NCBI GenBank assembly: GCA_017936665.1
Contig: JAGBFB010000039.1
Span: 1-60,025 of the forward strand
DNA length: 60,025 nucleotides
Reading direction: 5' to 3'
From: Spirochaetaceae bacterium
GTDB lineage: Bacteria; Spirochaetota; Spirochaetia; Treponematales; Treponemataceae
The notes under the pieces are model-generated. The model was not told the DNA's origin and did not search any database. It saw only the letters and a list, made by a program, of their open reading frames with translations. Made by a program: the position numbers and the translations under genes. Shown here one piece after another: positions 862-58,042 of the stretch (within the stretch, counting starts at the first letter, position 1; each line of letters opens with the position of its first letter).

Positions 862-2736
862 TTAATTTAATTCAGGCACAGTTTCAGGGGTTGTTACCGC
901 TGTAGTATAAAAACCACCTGCACACCCATCTCCCCATTCCATACTTGAAGTTAAATCTATCACAACGAATCCATCAGGAGCTGCTATAGCAGGATTGTCT
1001 TGATTATTACCAGCTCTTTGATATTTAACAGACTCTCCTTGAACCAAACGTAACTGATATGTAGTGGAAGAATTCAAATCATGAATATTTGTTGCTTCGT
1101 ATTTAAACCAAGAATTTCCACAATCTTCCATTTCAAACTCATCCCAATTATAACCATTATCGGCAATGGCAATTTTTACAGGTGTAATAGCAGGATCCCA
1201 AGTTGGAATTTTTACATAAAATGTTACAGTACTAACATCAGGAAGAGCAACTGTAGTTGTACCAGTGAAATCTAAATCATCAGTTTGTAACAGTTTATAG
1301 TCCCATATATCAGGTCCATTTTCATCAGATGTTGGAGACAAACCATCTATGGAAGTTCCATTAGGTACTGTAATTACAACTGCAGTAGAAAATTCCTCAT
1401 CGGTACTAAATGAAACAACACCATCTTCATAACTAGCACCAAATAAGTAATCCTTTTGAACATCATCTTCAGTTGCAGCAGCAGGTAAATAAGCATAAAC
1501 CACAACATCGTTATCACCAACCCATGATGCTTTTACATTTGTTATTGTATATGTTGTTTTACTTGGTTCTTCTTCTGCAATAACACTAAATTTAGCTACG
1601 ATTGTAACATCAGCATCTACTGTGTGTTGTGAAACACATTCATCGTTAATATACCAACCGTCAAAAACATATCCTTCTGGTTCTTCAAGAGGACTAAGAT
1701 TAAGAACTATATCCTTATTTACACTTCCTGTTTCAGGTAAACCTGTAACTAAATTAGCGTCAATTCCTTCTACAGTATAAGTAACTAAGAATGTTTCTAC
1801 TGGATCTGGATCTGGTTTTAACACGGCTTCTCCGCCTTCGCTACTTGGGTTATCAACTTTTGTGTATGTAATAACCATATCTTCTGATGCGTATGGATTA
1901 AACATTTTGCAAATTTCTACTGGATATGTAACACTAAAACTATCATTAGCTAAGGCTGTTGTTTTAATTTCAATTGCAGAATAATCTTCTTCTTCACTTA
2001 TTTTTTCACCTGTAATTGTTGCAACATTATCAGCTACTGTATATGTTGCAGGAACTTCACTTTCAACAAATACTACACAATCTGTTTCAGTTGTAAATTC
2101 GATGTATCCCATATCACCTGCATAGTAATTTCCTTCGAAATTATTTGTAGTATCAGGTGTTGGTTCTGGCTCTGGTGTTGAGCTGCCTTCATCACCGCCT
2201 GCTGGTGGTGTTGTGCTGCCTTCTTCACCGCCTGCTGGTGGTGTTGTACTGCCTTCTTCACCGCCTGCTGGTGGTGTCGTGCTGCCTTCATCACCGCCTG
2301 CTGGTGGTGTTGTACTGCCTTCTTCACCGCCTGCTGGTGGTGTTGTACTACCTTCTTCACCGCCTGCTGGTAAACTAGGAGCTACATTTTCAACAAACTT
2401 AGCAGTAATTGTTATATTAGACTTTACAGTATAATCACTTGTAAAAGGTTCTTCTCCGATATACCAACCTTCAAAAGACCAACCTTCTGGTGCTGTTAAA
2501 GTAGGCAAATCAGCAGCTTTTAAAACTGTCCCATCTTCAACAGTTTTTGTTTCTGGAAGTCCAGTTACAGAATCACCCCCCCCCTCAACAGCATATGTAA
2601 CTGTATACATAACAGGAGATGGCTCTGGTTCAGGTTCTGGTTCTTGTTCTTTACAACCAACAAACAATGTAGAAGCTAAAAATAATACTGTAATTAAAAG
2701 TGTAAAAATTTTAGCTACATTCCAATTTTTTTTCAT
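862..2736 (-). CDS. Surface lipoprotein with InlB (Listeria-Bacteroides) repeats and an 11-residue tandem repeat
   Basis: 624 residues. The N-terminus is a lipoprotein signal peptide ending in the lipobox FVGC (Cys28), followed by a proline-glutamate spacer. An InlB/PF09479-type module spans about residues 43-115 (GWSFEGWYIGEEPF), then six tandem 11-residue units PPAGGEEGSTT (about 122-187), a middle region, and a second InlB module at about 313-385 (GYVFDGWYINDE). The C-terminal third is beta-rich (VTFYVKIPTWDP, GNSWFKYEATNI) and could be a carbohydrate-binding-like fold; I cannot name it. The Shine-Dalgarno AAGGAGG lies 7 nt before the ATG. A run of nine G in codons of E52-G55 makes the frame prone to slippage. 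An outer-surface adhesin or substrate-binding role is inference. Confidence 0.8.
   Translation of the reverse strand: MKKNWNVAKIFTLLITVLFLASTLFVGCKEQEPEPEPEPSPVMYTVTYAVEGGGDSVTGLPETKTVEDGTVLKAADLPTLTAPEGWSFEGWYIGEEPFTSDYTVKSNITITAKFVENVAPSLPAGGEEGSTTPPAGGEEGSTTPPAGGDEGSTTPPAGGEEGSTTPPAGGEEGSTTPPAGGDEGSSTPEPEPTPDTTNNFEGNYYAGDMGYIEFTTETDCVVFVESEVPATYTVADNVATITGEKISEEEDYSAIEIKTTALANDSFSVTYPVEICKMFNPYASEDMVITYTKVDNPSSEGGEAVLKPDPDPVETFLVTYTVEGIDANLVTGLPETGSVNKDIVLNLSPLEEPEGYVFDGWYINDECVSQHTVDADVTIVAKFSVIAEEEPSKTTYTITNVKASWVGDNDVVVYAYLPAAATEDDVQKDYLFGASYEDGVVSFSTDEEFSTAVVITVPNGTSIDGLSPTSDENGPDIWDYKLLQTDDLDFTGTTTVALPDVSTVTFYVKIPTWDPAITPVKIAIADNGYNWDEFEMEDCGNSWFKYEATNIHDLNSSTTYQLRLVQGESVKYQRAGNNQDNPAIAAPDGFVVIDLTSSMEWGDGCAGGFYTTAVTTPETVPELN
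2176..2373 (-). repeat. Six tandem 33-bp units coding PPAGG(E/D)EGSTT
   Basis: The units are nearly identical at DNA level; differences are mainly GAA/GAT at the sixth codon and small changes in the last unit. The array lies between the two InlB modules and probably forms an extended proline-rich linker whose length can vary by recombination or slippage. Confidence 0.9.
2576..2584 (-). repeat. Intragenic 9-G homopolymer tract
   Basis: Nine consecutive C on the plus strand (nine G in the coding sense) sit near codon 53 of the InlB-repeat lipoprotein. In this AT-rich window runs of this length occur only at three places, all tied to lipoprotein genes. A one-base change would truncate the protein shortly after the signal peptide. 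Confidence 0.85.
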
Positions 2737-3092: not shown

Positions 3093-3719
3093 TTAATTTT
3101 GTTCCCACATTGCATAAAGAATAACATCCTTTGATAGCATATAGTCAACGTTTTGTGTTCCATTTTTTGTTTCTGACCAACCTACTAAAGTATAACCTTC
3201 TTTTTCTGCTGCTGGAGGAGCAAATTCTTCACCAACAAATTTAAAATAATCTGGAACCCATTTTTTTACTGCAGCAGTATTTCCATCAACATTACCACCA
3301 TTTAAATCAAATGTTACTTGATAATATTTTGAATAATCAGATGTAAGAGTGATTGATTCTGTTAAAACGTCATCATCATAATAATACTCACCATCTGCAT
3401 CAACGAACATTCCAGATTGACGATAAAAACTATCTCCTTCTTTGTAAGAATATTTTAGACCTTTTTCTCTATCAGGGAAAGCAGAATAACCTGGAAAATT
3501 GTTTTTTTCTAGAATTTCCCCTAAGGTTTGACCTGGTGTAAACTCACAAACAAATTCTTTAATTCCATCTTCATTTTCATCCTCTACATAAAACCATCCT
3601 TTTCCAGAATTCAATGTTAAAGTTTGTTTTAAACCACAAGAAGTAAAATTAAATAAACAACAAATAACAATAAAGCCCACTAAGACTTTACAACTAAGTT
3701 TTGAAAAATTAGTTTTCAT
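3093..3719 (-). CDS. Lipoprotein with one C-terminal InlB repeat, G-tract promoter
   Basis: 208 residues. The signal peptide ends at the lipobox FTSC (Cys28). An acidic, tyrosine-rich middle region (DADGEYYYDDDV) is followed by one InlB-type module (about 132-206) with the typical VTFDLNGGNVDGN start, GYTLVGWSE core and VILYAMW end. The Shine-Dalgarno GGAGG is 8 nt before the ATG. It shares its module family with the neighbouring 624-residue lipoprotein, so the two look like a small surface-protein locus. Its promoter contains a run of nine G between the -35 and -10 boxes, which suggests phase-variable transcription. Lipoprotein and module calls are secure; function is unknown. Confidence 0.82.
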   Translation of the reverse strand: MKTNFSKLSCKVLVGFIVICCLFNFTSCGLKQTLTLNSGKGWFYVEDENEDGIKEFVCEFTPGQTLGEILEKNNFPGYSAFPDREKGLKYSYKEGDSFYRQSGMFVDADGEYYYDDDVLTESITLTSDYSKYYQVTFDLNGGNVDGNTAAVKKWVPDYFKFVGEEFAPPAAEKEGYTLVGWSETKNGTQNVDYMLSKDVILYAMWEQN

Positions 3720-3755
3720 AAACTACCTCCAATAAAAAAATTATTTTGTTAATTT

Positions 3756-3784
3756 AGTCTATAAGAATTACCCCCCCCCGTCAA
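3756..3784 (-). promoter_or_regulatory. Promoter with G tract in the -35/-10 spacer (candidate phase-variable)
   Basis: On the minus strand ACTTGACG runs into a G tract (nine G in all, the first being the last base of TTGACG), then TAATTCTTA and TAGACT. With TAGACT as -10 the spacer is 17 nt; the overlapping TATAGA gives 15. Changing the G count would change the spacer directly. The same design occurs at 58015-58042. Confidence 0.65.
3771..3779 (-). repeat. 9-G homopolymer tract in promoter
   Basis: Nine C on the plus strand, about 52 bp before the start codon of the 208-residue lipoprotein gene and inside its presumed promoter spacer. Confidence 0.85.
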
Positions 3785-3864
3785 GTAGTAAATTAGTAAT
3801 TATAAATTTTACCAAACAGAAAACTATAAGTTTTGTAAAAATGAATCACCATAAAGAGTGCGTG

Positions 3865-3960
3865 AGGGACAGCCCCTTTGACCGCACAGCAACCTGCAAA
3901 AAGCAAGGTGCTAAAGGCTGAACGATGGGCTAATAATTACGCATTTTTTAACTCATCGTT
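3865..3960 (+). other. Structured noncoding leader of the cassette-like gene
   Basis: Two dyads follow each other. The first is an imperfect hairpin whose arms AGCAACCTGC and GCAAGGTGCT pair apart from unpaired A residues, enclosed by CAGCC / GGCTG. The second is AACGATGGG / CTCATCGTT (a 9-bp stem with one G-T pair and a 22-nt loop), followed some 14 nt later by a T-rich run. The second could be a terminator or attenuator. No gene with a credible start lies here. Confidence 0.45.
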
Positions 3961-4039
3961 GTCGATGGGTTTTTCTTTTTTAAAGTCATTATGGCTACGC
4001 ATCTTTGTGGAAAATATTTTTATTTTTTGGAGGCATTCT

Positions 4040-4384
4040 ATGCAAAACTACAAAGATGTATGTGGAAACGAAGAAAAAGTTTGGTTTGAAATTTCTGAAA
4101 CCGAAGGTCAAGAATTTTTACAATGGGCAAAAGATTTAGGTTGCTCATGGCTAAATGGAAATGAAATCATTCCAGAAAACGGCACAGATGGTCGTCATTT
4201 TTCAATACACAATGACGGGAAAATTGCCCATGTTGCAATGTTTATTTGGACGGACAAAAGAACTGAAAATATAATTCGATATTCATTTTCAGAATACATA
4301 AAAGGCAACAAAACACCGATACAAAACCAATGTAAATTAACAAAATTCATAATTGAAAATGAATGGACGGTTCGTTGCAAATAA
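4040..4384 (+). CDS. Small orphan protein, cassette-like gene
   Basis: 114 residues, no family recognised. I chose the ATG with GGAGG 7 nt upstream, although the frame stays open further back through structured noncoding DNA. The protein is soluble, tryptophan-rich and mildly acidic: FEISETEGQEFLQWAKDLGC near residues 16-35, then WLNGNEIIPENGTDGRHFS, then a beta-rich end with VAMFIWTD. There is no signal peptide. The compact unit of one small orphan gene immediately followed by a dyad repeat shared with another place in this window is the layout seen in integron gene cassettes, but no integrase is present here. Confidence 0.6.
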   Translation: MQNYKDVCGNEEKVWFEISETEGQEFLQWAKDLGCSWLNGNEIIPENGTDGRHFSIHNDGKIAHVAMFIWTDKRTENIIRYSFSEYIKGNKTPIQNQCKLTKFIIENEWTVRCK

Positions 4385-21968: not shown

Positions 21969-23189
21969 TTATTCATTTGAAGTATAGCGAACAACTCTAA
22001 ACCCTTTACCATAGTAAGATCTATATGGAAAATTTGATGAAGATGATCTATATCTTACATTACAACATTCTGCATTAGAGTAAAAATGACCTCCTCTACA
22101 AACTTTATGAGTTCCAGATTCTTCTCCTGTAGGATTTGTTACACTCTCCTCTTTTATGCTACCATAAAAATCATAACACCATTCATCCACATTTCCACAC
22201 ATATCATACAATTCAAGTCTATTTGGATTTTTTCTTCCTACTTGATGAGTTTCAAATTCTTGCGCATCCTCAGTAGTTTCTCCTGTTTCATTATTGTATT
22301 TATACCATCCAACAGAATCTAAACTAGGATTTCTTATATCGTCACTACTTGTATCGTCATTATAACAACCTTCTGATCCACTAAAAGAATAATTCCAATC
22401 TACTGCTGTAGGATCTCCTCCTCTCGCAGCATATTCCCATTCAGCTTCTGTTGGTAAACGATATCCTGTTGCACCTTCATTTAATGTCACTACTGCACCA
22501 GTTATGTTATAACCTATATCTGCTGAAATTTGTGTTACATCATTAATTTCAATATTATACACAGGAATTAAACCTTCTTTTTTACTTAATGCATTACAAT
22601 AATAAACAGCGTCATACCAAGTCACAAATTCTACTGGGCGTTTTTCTTGTATTTCGTCTGAAAATGGAGGATAAAATTTCTCTCCGTTACATTTAGATGG
22701 ATTACTAGCCAATGTATAAGTCTCTGAATTTATAGTAACTTTTTGATTTTCCATTACACTTTCATATTCTTCTTGCGTTACTTCATACTTACCCATATAA
22801 AAATCAGTTAATGTTACTGTTCTTCCTGTTATAAATACTCCAGCATAGTCACTTGTTGATGAATCGCCTTCAATCGTGCTACCTTTTACTAACACCATTT
22901 CGGGAATTATTGCTGGGGTAGATTCAATTAATTCTGTTTCTGTGTAACCACATACTGAACATAATCTTTCATCACAAGAACCATCTTCGTTTTCTTGCCA
23001 TTCGCAAAAAATATGCTCTGCTTTTTCTCTTGTTTCACCACAATCACAAAGATAATAATGATATTGCTCATTATAAGTCAATTTTGATAAAAAAGAATGA
23101 GTATGAGTTTCAGGCTCATCACAACCGAAAATAAAAATACAAAAGATTAGTGTAATCATTGTTAAGATATATTTAATTTTATTTTCCAT
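21969..23189 (-). CDS. SUMF1/FGE-like lipoprotein
   Basis: 406 residues from the ATG with AAAGGAG 9 nt upstream. The lipobox is IFGC (Cys23). A His/Cys-rich stretch (HTHSFL, YLCDCGETREKAEH, CSVCGYTET; about 29-90) looks like a zinc-binding or disulphide module seen in gut surface proteins. The rest is a formylglycine-generating-enzyme (PF03781) fold: MGKYEVTQEEYE, PVEFVTWYDAVYYCNALS, YRLPTEAEWEYAARGG, DMCGNVDEWCYD and RGGHFYS. Of the two catalytic cysteines of true FGE the first aligns with Ser, so sulfatase activation is unlikely. A binding or carbohydrate-related role is possible. Confidence 0.82.
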   Translation of the reverse strand: MENKIKYILTMITLIFCIFIFGCDEPETHTHSFLSKLTYNEQYHYYLCDCGETREKAEHIFCEWQENEDGSCDERLCSVCGYTETELIESTPAIIPEMVLVKGSTIEGDSSTSDYAGVFITGRTVTLTDFYMGKYEVTQEEYESVMENQKVTINSETYTLASNPSKCNGEKFYPPFSDEIQEKRPVEFVTWYDAVYYCNALSKKEGLIPVYNIEINDVTQISADIGYNITGAVVTLNEGATGYRLPTEAEWEYAARGGDPTAVDWNYSFSGSEGCYNDDTSSDDIRNPSLDSVGWYKYNNETGETTEDAQEFETHQVGRKNPNRLELYDMCGNVDEWCYDFYGSIKEESVTNPTGEESGTHKVCRGGHFYSNAECCNVRYRSSSSNFPYRSYYGKGFRVVRYTSNE

Positions 23190-23360
23190 AAAGTTATTCT
23201 CCTTTAAGTACAGTTGACTTGAGGTCAATTGTAAAATAATTTTTTCTTTGTGTCCATAATACGATCTCTTCCAAAATAAGTTTTCAATTCCCCTTTCTTT
23301 TCAAGAATATTTCCATCATCTCTACCTACTGAAAGAAATTTGCAAAATAAATTAAATCAA

Positions 23361-50114: not shown

Positions 50115-51739
50115 AAAAACTTCCTTAAAAATTGATAAAATCCTTTTAAAATAAAACAACTTGAACCTACTATCATTAGAATAATTCCACAGACGCAAGA
50201 TGAATTAAACTGATAGGAAGAAGCCAATCTAAATGTATATAAGGAAAGAGGTGTGAAATTTTGAATTGATAAAATTAAGGGTAAAGTTGCATCACCACAA
50301 CTAATTGCAAAGCTAAAAGCAAAAGCTGAAAAAATGCTTTCTTTTACATTAGGAATATAAACCCAAAAAATTGATTTTGATTTATCTTCTGAAAAGATTT
50401 TACAAACATCATCTATTTGTAAAGAAATTTTATCAAGATTATTTGAAATCAACCTAAATGCAAAAGGAAACGCAACTACACTTTGAAAAATTGATAAAGT
50501 AAAAAAATTTGGTTCTAAATTAAATAATTGTGAAAAAATAATTATTCCGTATCCTGTGATTACAGAAGAAATTGTCAAAGGAACAAGAGGAAGTATTTTT
50601 ATCAAAATACTATTTCTGGATTTTTTATTTAATCTAAAAAACAAGGAACAAGTTAGAGCAAAAATAACAGTTAAAGTTGCAGTACATAAAGCAGTAATTA
50701 TAGAATCCTTAATTGATAAATACAAATTTTTGTTTGACAACACATCACCAAATTTTGCAAAAGAAGAAAAAATTAATGAAAGAAATGGCATTAAGAAAAA
50801 TACAAAAATTAATGTTATCAATATTGATAAAAAAACTTTTTCTGATAATTTTTTTATTTTTACACAAATAAATTCGTTACAAGAGTTTCGGTTTTTAGAA
50901 GATTTTTTTTCAAGAATCAACACTATTAAACACAATAAAGTTGCAGTAAAAGTTTCGATAATCCCTAAAACTGAAGCCATTTTATAATTCAATGTGTTTT
51001 TTACAGATTGATAAATTTCAACCTCGATAGTTGTGCAACCGATTGCACCAAAAAGCAAAACGATTATAAAACTAAAAAAACAGTACAAAAAAACCGTAAT
51101 TGCAGAAGAACAGATTGCTGTTGAAATTTGATAAATTGTTACCGAAAAAAAACGTCGTATCGGATTTGCACCTAAAATTAATGCAGCATTTTCTTGGCGA
51201 GAATCAATTTTTGACCAAACATCGCTACAAGTTTTCATCACTAGTGGAAAGTTGTAAAATCCTTGGGCAATAATTATTCCTGTAAAAGAATATAAAAAAG
51301 TGATTGGTGTCGTATTCAAGTTAAAAACTGATTTTATAAATTGATTCAAACTTCCATTCATTCCAAAAAATTGAACATAAGCAAGTGCAACTAACAGGGT
51401 AGGAACACAAAAAGGAATTGCTGATAATGAAACAAAAAACTTTTTTAAAGGAAATTCCCTATGAGATATAAAAAATCCCATAGGAACACCAATTAACATC
51501 GCAATTACTGTTGAGAAAAATGCTTGTTTTATCGTAAAAACAAGTGCATTAAAAATATATTTGAAAGAATAAATATTACTAGAACCAAAATTTATTGTTT
51601 CATTTTGAGAAAATATAGGAATTATTGAAAAAATTAGAGGAAGTACAAAGGCACAAATCAATAAAAAAGCAAGTAAAATTGCAATGCTTATAGAAACATA
51701 CCTAAGTATTCCTCCAAAATTGATTTTGTTATTCTGCAT
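50111..51739 (-). CDS. thiP: Thiamine ABC transporter permease
   Basis: 542 residues with about 12 membrane segments in two homologous halves, as in ThiP, where both permease units are fused. The first half has the EAA-type loop ENAALILGANPIRRFF near residue 185-200; the second has a weaker equivalent around DVCKIFSEDKSKSIFWVYIP. It overlaps the binding-protein gene by 11 bases. Together with ThiB and ThiQ it imports thiamine or its phosphates. Confidence 0.88.
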   Translation of the reverse strand: MQNNKINFGGILRYVSISIAILLAFLLICAFVLPLIFSIIPIFSQNETINFGSSNIYSFKYIFNALVFTIKQAFFSTVIAMLIGVPMGFFISHREFPLKKFFVSLSAIPFCVPTLLVALAYVQFFGMNGSLNQFIKSVFNLNTTPITFLYSFTGIIIAQGFYNFPLVMKTCSDVWSKIDSRQENAALILGANPIRRFFSVTIYQISTAICSSAITVFLYCFFSFIIVLLFGAIGCTTIEVEIYQSVKNTLNYKMASVLGIIETFTATLLCLIVLILEKKSSKNRNSCNEFICVKIKKLSEKVFLSILITLIFVFFLMPFLSLIFSSFAKFGDVLSNKNLYLSIKDSIITALCTATLTVIFALTCSLFFRLNKKSRNSILIKILPLVPLTISSVITGYGIIIFSQLFNLEPNFFTLSIFQSVVAFPFAFRLISNNLDKISLQIDDVCKIFSEDKSKSIFWVYIPNVKESIFSAFAFSFAISCGDATLPLILSIQNFTPLSLYTFRLASSYQFNSSCVCGIILMIVGSSCFILKGFYQFLRKFL

Positions 51740-52757
51740 TATTTAACATAAAAACTATATCATTTACAGTTCTATCTAAAGTTTGTGCATCAACAGATAA
51801 ATTCTTTTTTGCTTTAGGAGCTGCTTTGTAAGACTCTGGCAAAAGAACATTATCAGCAACTGGATACATCCACTGAGTTAAAGGAATTACAGATTGAGCT
51901 TCTTCTGAAATTAAAAAATCGATAAATTCTTTTGCTCCTTCAGGATTTTTACAGCGTTTTACAATTCCAGCACCTTCCACTTGATAAGGATGACCTTCAT
52001 CAAAAATAAGTGCTTTGAATTTATCAGTTTCTCCATATTCAACATGATATGCAGGACTTGTTGTGTAACTAATTACCAAAGGAGCTTCCCCAGAAGTAAA
52101 TAAACCATAACCAGTATCCCAACCTGGAGCCATAGTTAAAATATTTGGTCGTAAAGCATACCAGTAATTTACAGTTGCATCCCCAAATTGTGCTAAAGTC
52201 CAAGCAACAAAGCCAAGTCCAGGAGTTGATGTTCGTGGATCCATAAGAATAATTTTTTTGTTGTAAACTTCTTTTGTTAAGTCCATTAAAGATTTTGGCT
52301 CTGGAACATCAGATTGAGTATTGTAAATAAAAGCAAAATTACTCCAATCAAAAGGAGTTAATGTTCCTTTTTCATCAAAAAGCAAATGTTCTGGAATTTC
52401 TTTTAAGTTATGACTAACATAAGGTTCTAAAATGTTTGAATATTTAGCTTTTTCAAACAGATTGTTATCAATTCCAATCAGAACATCAGCCTTAGGATTA
52501 GCTCTTTCAACAGTTGCCTTTGAAAGCACTTGAGCAGCATCCCCTACTGACTGAAAAATCAAATCATAGTCAGAATGTTCTTCAAACAGCTTTTCTAAAA
52601 CAGGAGCTGGTCCCCATTCAGAAAGAAAAGAGTCGTAAGCATAAACTACAACTTGCTTTTTGCGTAATTCAGTTGCCTCTTTGTTACAGCCAACAAAAGA
52701 AACAACAGCCAAAACTAAAAAAATTGAAAAAAGAAAAGAGATGAGATTTTTGTTCAT
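51729..52757 (-). CDS. thiB: Thiamine-binding lipoprotein
   Basis: 342 residues. The lipobox SFVGC places the lipid on Cys24, so the protein is anchored rather than free as in E. coli. Conserved ThiB/TbpA blocks are VVYAYDSFLSEWGPAPVLEK, DVLIGIDNNLFEKA, TPFDWSNFAFIYNT and SYTTSPAYHVEY. GGAGG, 8 nt before the ATG, is the 3' end of the TPP riboswitch. It captures thiamine for ThiPQ. Confidence 0.93.
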   Translation of the reverse strand: MNKNLISFLFSIFLVLAVVSFVGCNKEATELRKKQVVVYAYDSFLSEWGPAPVLEKLFEEHSDYDLIFQSVGDAAQVLSKATVERANPKADVLIGIDNNLFEKAKYSNILEPYVSHNLKEIPEHLLFDEKGTLTPFDWSNFAFIYNTQSDVPEPKSLMDLTKEVYNKKIILMDPRTSTPGLGFVAWTLAQFGDATVNYWYALRPNILTMAPGWDTGYGLFTSGEAPLVISYTTSPAYHVEYGETDKFKALIFDEGHPYQVEGAGIVKRCKNPEGAKEFIDFLISEEAQSVIPLTQWMYPVADNVLLPESYKAAPKAKKNLSVDAQTLDRTVNDIVFMLNNAE

Positions 52758-57002: not shown

Positions 57003-57413
57003 TTAGAAAGGTAATCCATCCAAAATTGAAGAATCATCTTCTACACGAGTCAGATAATAGATAATGCTATATCCATCCGAATCATAAGTTAATTCTAAGG
57101 AATCTCCATCAAAAACAACAGAATAGGTTCCATTATAATAAGGTGAATTTGTTTCAATACTCAAAATAGGCTCATCGTAGTTCCATGAACCTGTAATTGG
57201 CATAGAATCGTCCTTTTCTATCGAAAAATCTCCACTCTTATCAAAACGCCAAGTTTCGTCAGTAGACCTACTTGTTACGGACATCCCATCTGTTCCTGTA
57301 GAATATCTATAACAATTCCATTCAGTATCATCCAATGGATTTTTTCCAAAACCACATCCTAAAAAAACAAAAACAGAAAAAATAAGTAATACATAATAAA
57401 TGATTTTTTTCAT
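57003..57413 (-). CDS. Small lipoprotein of unknown function
   Basis: 136 residues from the ATG 6 nt behind GGAG. The lipobox is FLGC (Cys20). The mature part (DDTEWNCYRYS, TWRFDKSGDFSI, ITGSWNYDEPIL, LELTYDSDG) matches the general pattern of lipocalin-like beta-sheet lipoproteins. A terminator hairpin ends just before the ribosome binding site, leaving no room for a separate promoter, so expression probably depends on read-through from the upstream lipoprotein gene. Confidence 0.72.
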   Translation of the reverse strand: MKKIIYYVLLIFSVFVFLGCGFGKNPLDDTEWNCYRYSTGTDGMSVTSRSTDETWRFDKSGDFSIEKDDSMPITGSWNYDEPILSIETNSPYYNGTYSVVFDGDSLELTYDSDGYSIIYYLTRVEDDSSILDGLPF

Positions 57414-57424
57414 TTTTTTCTCCA

Positions 57425-57466
57425 TAAAAAACAACTACATTATTCTGCAAAAAACAAAATGTAGTT
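57425..57466 (-). terminator. Intergenic terminator or attenuator between two lipoprotein genes
   Basis: AACTACATT / AATGTAGTT, a 9-bp perfect stem, then GTTTTTT on the minus strand, directly before the Shine-Dalgarno of the next gene. Confidence 0.7.
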
Positions 57467-57479
57467 TTATAAATTTTTA

Positions 57480-57959
57480 TTAGAATAGTTTATCAATAAA
57501 AGAATCAGAAGGACCAGATACCTTTACTTCAACACTATCAGTGTTTGATGCAGATGTATTTGGTTGAGAATCTTTATATTTAATAGCAGTACCTGTGGCA
57601 ACATAAGTATATGTATTTTTTGAACCAAAAATAACATCAAAGATACTTGACTTTAAGTTGTCTTTTCTGTCAATTCTTACATTTACAACATCATCAGCAC
57701 CAAGTTCGATTGCTTTTTTCATTAAGTCTGTATATGTAATTCTAGAACCTGTAACACTTCTAGTTAGACTTAAAAAACCAACTTTTACTGTTTCAGTTGA
57801 TTCAAGAGTAATAACATCTACAATTTCAAAGTCTTTTGCAATAGTACCAATATAAGTTGAAGCACCTACTTGATTTGTTGCAAGATCTGTTGTAGAACAA
57901 GAACATACTAGCATCATGATTGCTAATACAACCACAGAAAAACAAATTTGTTTTTTCAT
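57480..57959 (-). CDS. Small lipoprotein with a G-tract promoter
   Basis: 159 residues with lipobox CSCS (Cys21 or Cys19). KKAIELGADDVVNVRIDRKD resembles the YbjQ/DUF4156-type fold of small exported proteins, and the end is Ser/Asp-rich (NTSASNTDSVEVKVSG). AAGGAG lies about 8 nt before the ATG, and the 5' leader can form the stem TGAACTGT / ACAGTTCA. Its promoter carries a G tract in the spacer, as for the 208-residue lipoprotein gene. Function unknown. Confidence 0.75.
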   Translation of the reverse strand: MKKQICFSVVVLAIMMLVCSCSTTDLATNQVGASTYIGTIAKDFEIVDVITLESTETVKVGFLSLTRSVTGSRITYTDLMKKAIELGADDVVNVRIDRKDNLKSSIFDVIFGSKNTYTYVATGTAIKYKDSQPNTSASNTDSVEVKVSGPSDSFIDKLF

Positions 57960-58014
57960 AAATAACTCCTTATGAACTGTCTATAGTTTCTTTTAACAGT
58001 TCAATACTAAAATC

Positions 58015-58042
58015 AGAATACTACAATTCCCCCCCCCGTCAA
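58015..58042 (-). promoter_or_regulatory. Promoter with G tract in the -35/-10 spacer (candidate phase-variable), second copy
   Basis: ACTTGACG followed by a G tract (nine G in all), AATTGTAG, then TATTCT: spacer 16 nt. The core ACTTGACG, G tract and AATT is the same as at 3756-3784. Confidence 0.65.
58029..58037 (-). repeat. 9-G homopolymer tract in promoter
   Basis: Nine C on the plus strand, 70 bp before the start of the 159-residue lipoprotein gene. Confidence 0.85.

Follow-up and report, generated by a model that had tools for sequence, protein, structure and literature searches.

A poly-G promoter design shared by some 20 lipoprotein genes in a Spirochaetaceae genome

Two G-tract promoters and the genes behind them

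The window, by which we mean the whole 60,025-nt stretch of DNA analysed, forms contig 29 among the 43 contigs of a Spirochaetaceae genome of 2.58 Mb. Near each of its ends lies a minus-strand promoter in which a run of nine G separates the -35 box from the -10 box; the -10 boxes in this study were called by sequence, and are thus predicted. The features discussed below are as follows.

3756..3784, minus strand: promoter read from the sequence, with TTGAC (3784-3780), G9 (3779-3771), the 9-nt filler TAATTCTTA and the predicted -10 box TAGACT (3761-3756)
3771..3779, minus strand: G9, putative slippage tract in the -35/-10 spacer
3093..3719, minus strand: lipoprotein ORF of 208 aa with an FNFTSC lipobox and a Flg_new / Listeria-Bacteroides repeat domain
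862..2736, minus strand: lipoprotein ORF of 624 aa with Flg_new repeats and a PAGG(E/D)EGSTTP repeat array, downstream of 3093-3719
2576..2584, minus strand: G9 inside ORF 862-2736 at about codon 50, in frame in the assembly
58015..58042, minus strand: promoter with TTGAC (58042-58038), G9 (58037-58029), the 8-nt filler AATTGTAG and the predicted -10 box TATTCT (58020-58015)
58029..58037, minus strand: G9, putative slippage tract in the -35/-10 spacer
57966..58003 (approximate), minus strand: predicted 5' UTR stem-loop (TGAACTGT...ACAGTTCA) just ahead of an AAGGAG Shine-Dalgarno sequence (z-score -1.8, weak)
57480..57959, minus strand: lipoprotein ORF of 159 aa with an MLVCSC lipobox and a match to DUF6567 (PF20205)
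57003..57434, minus strand: second lipoprotein-like ORF, of a lipocalin-like family, 45 nt downstream of 57480-57959

Counted with TTGACG as the -35 box, the spacer is 17 nt at 3756-3784, where ACTAC directly precedes the -35, and 16 nt at 58015-58042, where CCAAC does. The original prediction had given both sites a G9 tract and these same spacers, and the sequence agrees, both reading ACTTGAC-G9. Each promoter is followed by an ATG (at 3719 and 57959, respectively) that opens an ORF starting with a lipoprotein signal peptide. The second of these ORFs is probably co-transcribed with 57003-57434. Tandem lipoprotein genes share one G-tract promoter both here (57003-57959) and at C31:920-2658 (the L047 region), which suggests that some G-tract promoters serve small lipoprotein operons. 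Orthologs of the 57480-57959 protein occur in five other genomes; in L172, the only one whose upstream sequence was read, there is no G tract upstream of the gene.

The tracts stand out from the base composition of the window. Overlapping matches to a G 7-mer number 9, where 0.54 are expected, and they come from just three tracts of at least 7 nt, each a C9 on the forward strand; C runs there have lengths of 1-5 and then 9, with none at 6-8. The third tract, 2576-2584, is a candidate translational switch. Further along the same gene, the PAGG(E/D)EGSTTP array is encoded at 2157-2380, and its copy number may vary. Other lipoprotein ORFs in the window have no G-tract promoter (e.g., 21969-23228 and 51729-52757); as only three tracts are found there, the promoters described here must serve a subset of lipoproteins. 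Among plasmids, no match to the window region 3600-4100 was found.

A promoter class for lipoprotein genes

The two window promoters, the only ones originally proposed, are both real but prove to be an under-count: a genome-wide search for the motif followed by at least seven G, as the original prediction had recommended, identified 20 promoters of the TTGAC-G-tract design across the 2.58 Mb. The reversed control motif gave 0 matches in the same searches. The consensus of the set is C-[C/A]-T-A-[C/G]-TTGAC-G7..10-(7-9 nt filler, often ending TGn)-TAnnnT, with a -10 box that is frequently extended (TGnTAnnnT). All 20 sites have a homopolymer tract between the -35 and the predicted -10; this pure G7-G10 run begins right at TTGAC and fills about half of the spacer, a proportion that had been predicted for the window sites and holds across the class. 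Genome-wide there are 35 tracts of at least 8 G, 19 of which stand behind TTGAC (two of them with one intervening nucleotide, TTGACC and TTGACT), and one further member of the class has G7 in this position. The composition-based chance of finding 20 of 36 G tracts behind TTGAC is below 1e-40. Non-promoter G tracts of the genome sit inside lipoprotein and other ORFs. We excluded from the class a TTGACG5 at C18:76785, where the G run is short and the sequence is coding-like.

The block that precedes TTGAC, which we refer to as CCTAS, is strongly conserved (A in 20/20, T in 19/20, and the first C in 18/20 promoters). There are 14 genomic copies of the string CCTASTTGAC, and a G tract follows every one except that at C22:7009. 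Downstream of each of the 20 promoters, the next ORF with a Shine-Dalgarno sequence, 29-120 nt past the tract, has a lipoprotein signal peptide. A lipobox was recognized in these ORFs by eye in 20/20 cases and by an automatic rule in 18/20, as compared to 7 of 56 non-overlapping window ORFs that pass the same rule (Fisher p 6e-10). Given 20 copies, lipoprotein targets in every instance, and a CCTAS block that hardly ever occurs unless a G tract follows, a promoter class dedicated to lipoproteins is strongly supported. That the targets are different lipoproteins, as had been claimed on the basis of two, is upheld as well, many of the 20 being mutually unrelated.

In addition, 5' UTR stem-loops are predicted behind several G-tract promoters (L016, L033, L036, L037, L045, L051, and window 58003-57966). 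They start near the inferred transcript start and end just before the Shine-Dalgarno sequence, and possibly stabilize the mRNA; their z-scores are mostly weak.

Tract length, spacing, and the case for slippage

When only spacers of 15-17 nt are allowed in calling the -10 boxes, the inferred spacer is 16 nt at 14 promoters, 15 nt at four, and 17 nt at two. Under the same restriction, G count and filler length compensate for one another (r -0.61, permutation p 0.007); when the scan for -10 boxes admits any spacer from 12 to 22 nt, two sites shift to 21 nt and the compensation is not significant (p 0.16). Because this test depends on the -10 calls, we regard tuning of the spacing by tract and filler length as likely only.

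Tract length differs between related copies of the promoter. At C18:102897 and C18:103424, two paralogs in tandem have promoters with G8 and G9, respectively; apart from this one G, the 26 nt that lead up to the -35 and the first 91 nt past the tract are the same in both. Similarly, an orthologous lipoprotein promoter in two other Treponemataceae species representatives has G9 in one (G026) and G8 in the other (G058), although the two sequences match throughout about 65 nt upstream and differ at just three of 250 nt downstream; these comparisons use one genome per species, and single G lengths in an assembly could be off by one. Tracts of G8-G10 also interrupt coding sequence. The assembly has four of them out of frame, at C1:3875 (L009), C1:6880 (L011), C7:180557 (L024), and C13:5382 (L032), and these are flanked by long open frames on both sides, except that at C7:180557 a lipoprotein start is cut off after the tract. 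Those at C7:209760, C17:34425, and window 2576 are in frame. We consider the four out-of-frame tracts to be candidate translational switches that are off in the assembly, and they are consistent with active slippage. Taken with the purity of the tracts and the two one-G differences, they lend indirect support to slippage at the promoters, which may bring about switching within a population. Loss of mismatch repair is not supported as a cause: this genome and all 20 relatives searched have MutL, so that mismatch repair is not obviously lost.

On the strength of these sequence patterns, our main reading, to which we give a probability of roughly 0.78, is that the two window sites are members of a group of some 20 sigma-70-like promoters that are dedicated to lipoprotein genes, tunable by slippage, and each switched independently. 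Each gain or loss of a G in the tract by strand slippage would bring the spacer closer to a length of about 16-17 nt or take it further off, and RNA polymerase binding would rise or fall accordingly at each promoter independently of the others. Surface lipoproteins would then form a mosaic that is combinatorial, heritable, and reversible, and to it G tracts inside lipoprotein and other frames could contribute additional on/off switching by frameshift.

The same promoters might instead be static, the G-rich spacer being kept either for its structure or because CCTAS-TTGAC-Gn is recognized by a cognate sigma factor or regulator, with slippage incidental or rare. The conservation of CCTAS, its rarity without a G tract (13/14 carry one), and the clustering of spacers at 16 nt in the assembly all fit such an architecture, and the narrow range of tract lengths could reflect a tuned, mostly static promoter. 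A structural demand for G-richness would, however, allow interruptions, and no interrupted tract was found at the promoter motif, a search with two mismatches allowed yielding only three G/T-mixed matches behind TTGAC. Near-identical promoters, moreover, differ by just one G, and among clones of T. pallidum Nichols 24 of 46 G/C tracts of at least 8 nt vary in length, while shorter ones do not (PMC10013896). We therefore judge a static architecture unlikely. Doubtful, too, is the proposal that CCTAS-TTGAC-Gn constitutes a transferable promoter cassette with a recognition factor of its own, be it an activator or a specialized sigma factor; if it were true, a set of unrelated lipoproteins would be subject to co-regulation in trans, and slippage would tune each one in cis.

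Two simpler accounts concern the existence of the class itself. The promoters might be alike merely because recent duplication gave the lipoprotein genes the same upstream DNA, and the targets do include about eight lipocalin-like paralogs, a second paralog pair (C40 and C41), and the C18 tandem duplicate. The remaining targets, however, resemble one another significantly in nothing but signal peptides or repeats, so that promoter sharing reaches beyond gene duplication, and the likeness of the promoters extends from CCTAS through the -10 box and no further. Comparison of the target proteins mostly refutes shared descent for about half of the set, and as a sole explanation we find it very improbable. 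Chance or an artefact of homopolymer assembly is harder still to credit: G homopolymers are error-prone in sequencing and individual lengths may be off by one, an uncertainty that stays for single G's, but the reversed motif had no matches, all 20 downstream ORFs encode lipoproteins, and TTGACG7 has 0 matches in two same-genus genomes (G001 and G002, both incomplete), which have G tracts, none of them behind TTGAC. For the class as a whole, this explanation is refuted.

Known poly-G switches and other genomes

The independently switched promoters of our main reading would have company in other bacteria. As precedent, the tpr promoters of T. pallidum had been put forward, and poly-G length does affect transcription of the surface-protein genes tprE/G/J and tprL, with lengths that vary in vivo (PMC7864442); a closer precedent is TP0126, an OmpW homolog, whose poly-G lies between -35 and -10, the same geometry as in the lipoprotein promoters, and which is best expressed when the tract gives a 17-nt spacer (PMC7864442, citing Giacani 2015). 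TP0126 is described as a single-gene promoter with an outer-membrane-protein target, whereas here 20 promoters share one consensus, the CCTAS block, and lipoprotein targets. The poly-G promoters of tpr and OMP genes in T. pallidum have Tpr or other outer-membrane beta-barrel proteins as targets, while all 20 targets here have lipoprotein signal peptides. The porA promoter of Neisseria meningitidis likewise has poly-G in its -35/-10 spacer, with an optimum at 17 nt (PMC7864442), but is a single porin promoter from an unrelated phylum. In Mycoplasma hyorhinis, each vlp lipoprotein gene has a homopolymer tract in its own promoter, and the resulting lipoprotein mosaic is combinatorial (PMC10502178). 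The 20 genes here resemble this arrangement in having one promoter tract apiece; the vlp tracts, however, are poly-A and serve one gene family, while those here are poly-G and precede about 20 genes on many contigs, from several unrelated families.

By analogy, the treponeme module would, on the best reading, work in the manner of TP0126, of meningococcal porA, and of the vlp promoters of M. hyorhinis. The type of switch is already known. What is new, as far as we could find, is a standardized promoter module with a CCTAS block across about 20 partly unrelated lipoprotein genes; we found no earlier description of such a shared module in the open-licence literature. Poly-G switching in T. pallidum has been described gene by gene, whereas the present genome would have a standard slippage promoter common to about 20 lipoproteins, and surface variation would then be built in at the level of the promoter class. 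The same promoters form a natural set for measuring spacer length against output.

With 18 matches to TTGACG7, the present genome ranks highest among 394 genomes of its order. The next highest, G136, belongs to another family of the order and has 10 matches, whose tracts are longer (G12-G17) and mostly follow a common AAAAAACTATTGAC-like block (also given as a AAAAAACTA/G block); this set is a separate design. Some of the tracts at the G136 sites (L107, L129-L137) are at contig ends. A third genome, G167, has three matches (L138-L140), in which G7-G9 occupies signal-peptide codons of paralogous lipoprotein genes, just before the lipobox Cys. In IMG/VR there was no copy of CCTAS-G7, and 11 looser matches were scattered.

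A geometry-specific pattern run against 84,980 genomes returned 24 stretches, mostly from gut Bacilli and Clostridia and including one Treponema brennaborense MAG; as the pattern admits spacers only up to about 16 nt, these matches are uninformative on spacer preference. The look-alikes in gut Bacilli, Clostridia, and others have the local geometry of the treponeme promoters, but their genomes differ in having at most three matches each in the pattern scan and no CCTAS block. They probably represent independent origins, which would suggest that this solution has arisen repeatedly. Many of these TTGAC-G7..10-TGnTA promoter-like sites (L175-L198) precede secreted-looking ORFs, and one genome, BP7.bin34, has three sites, all ahead of related leader sequences.
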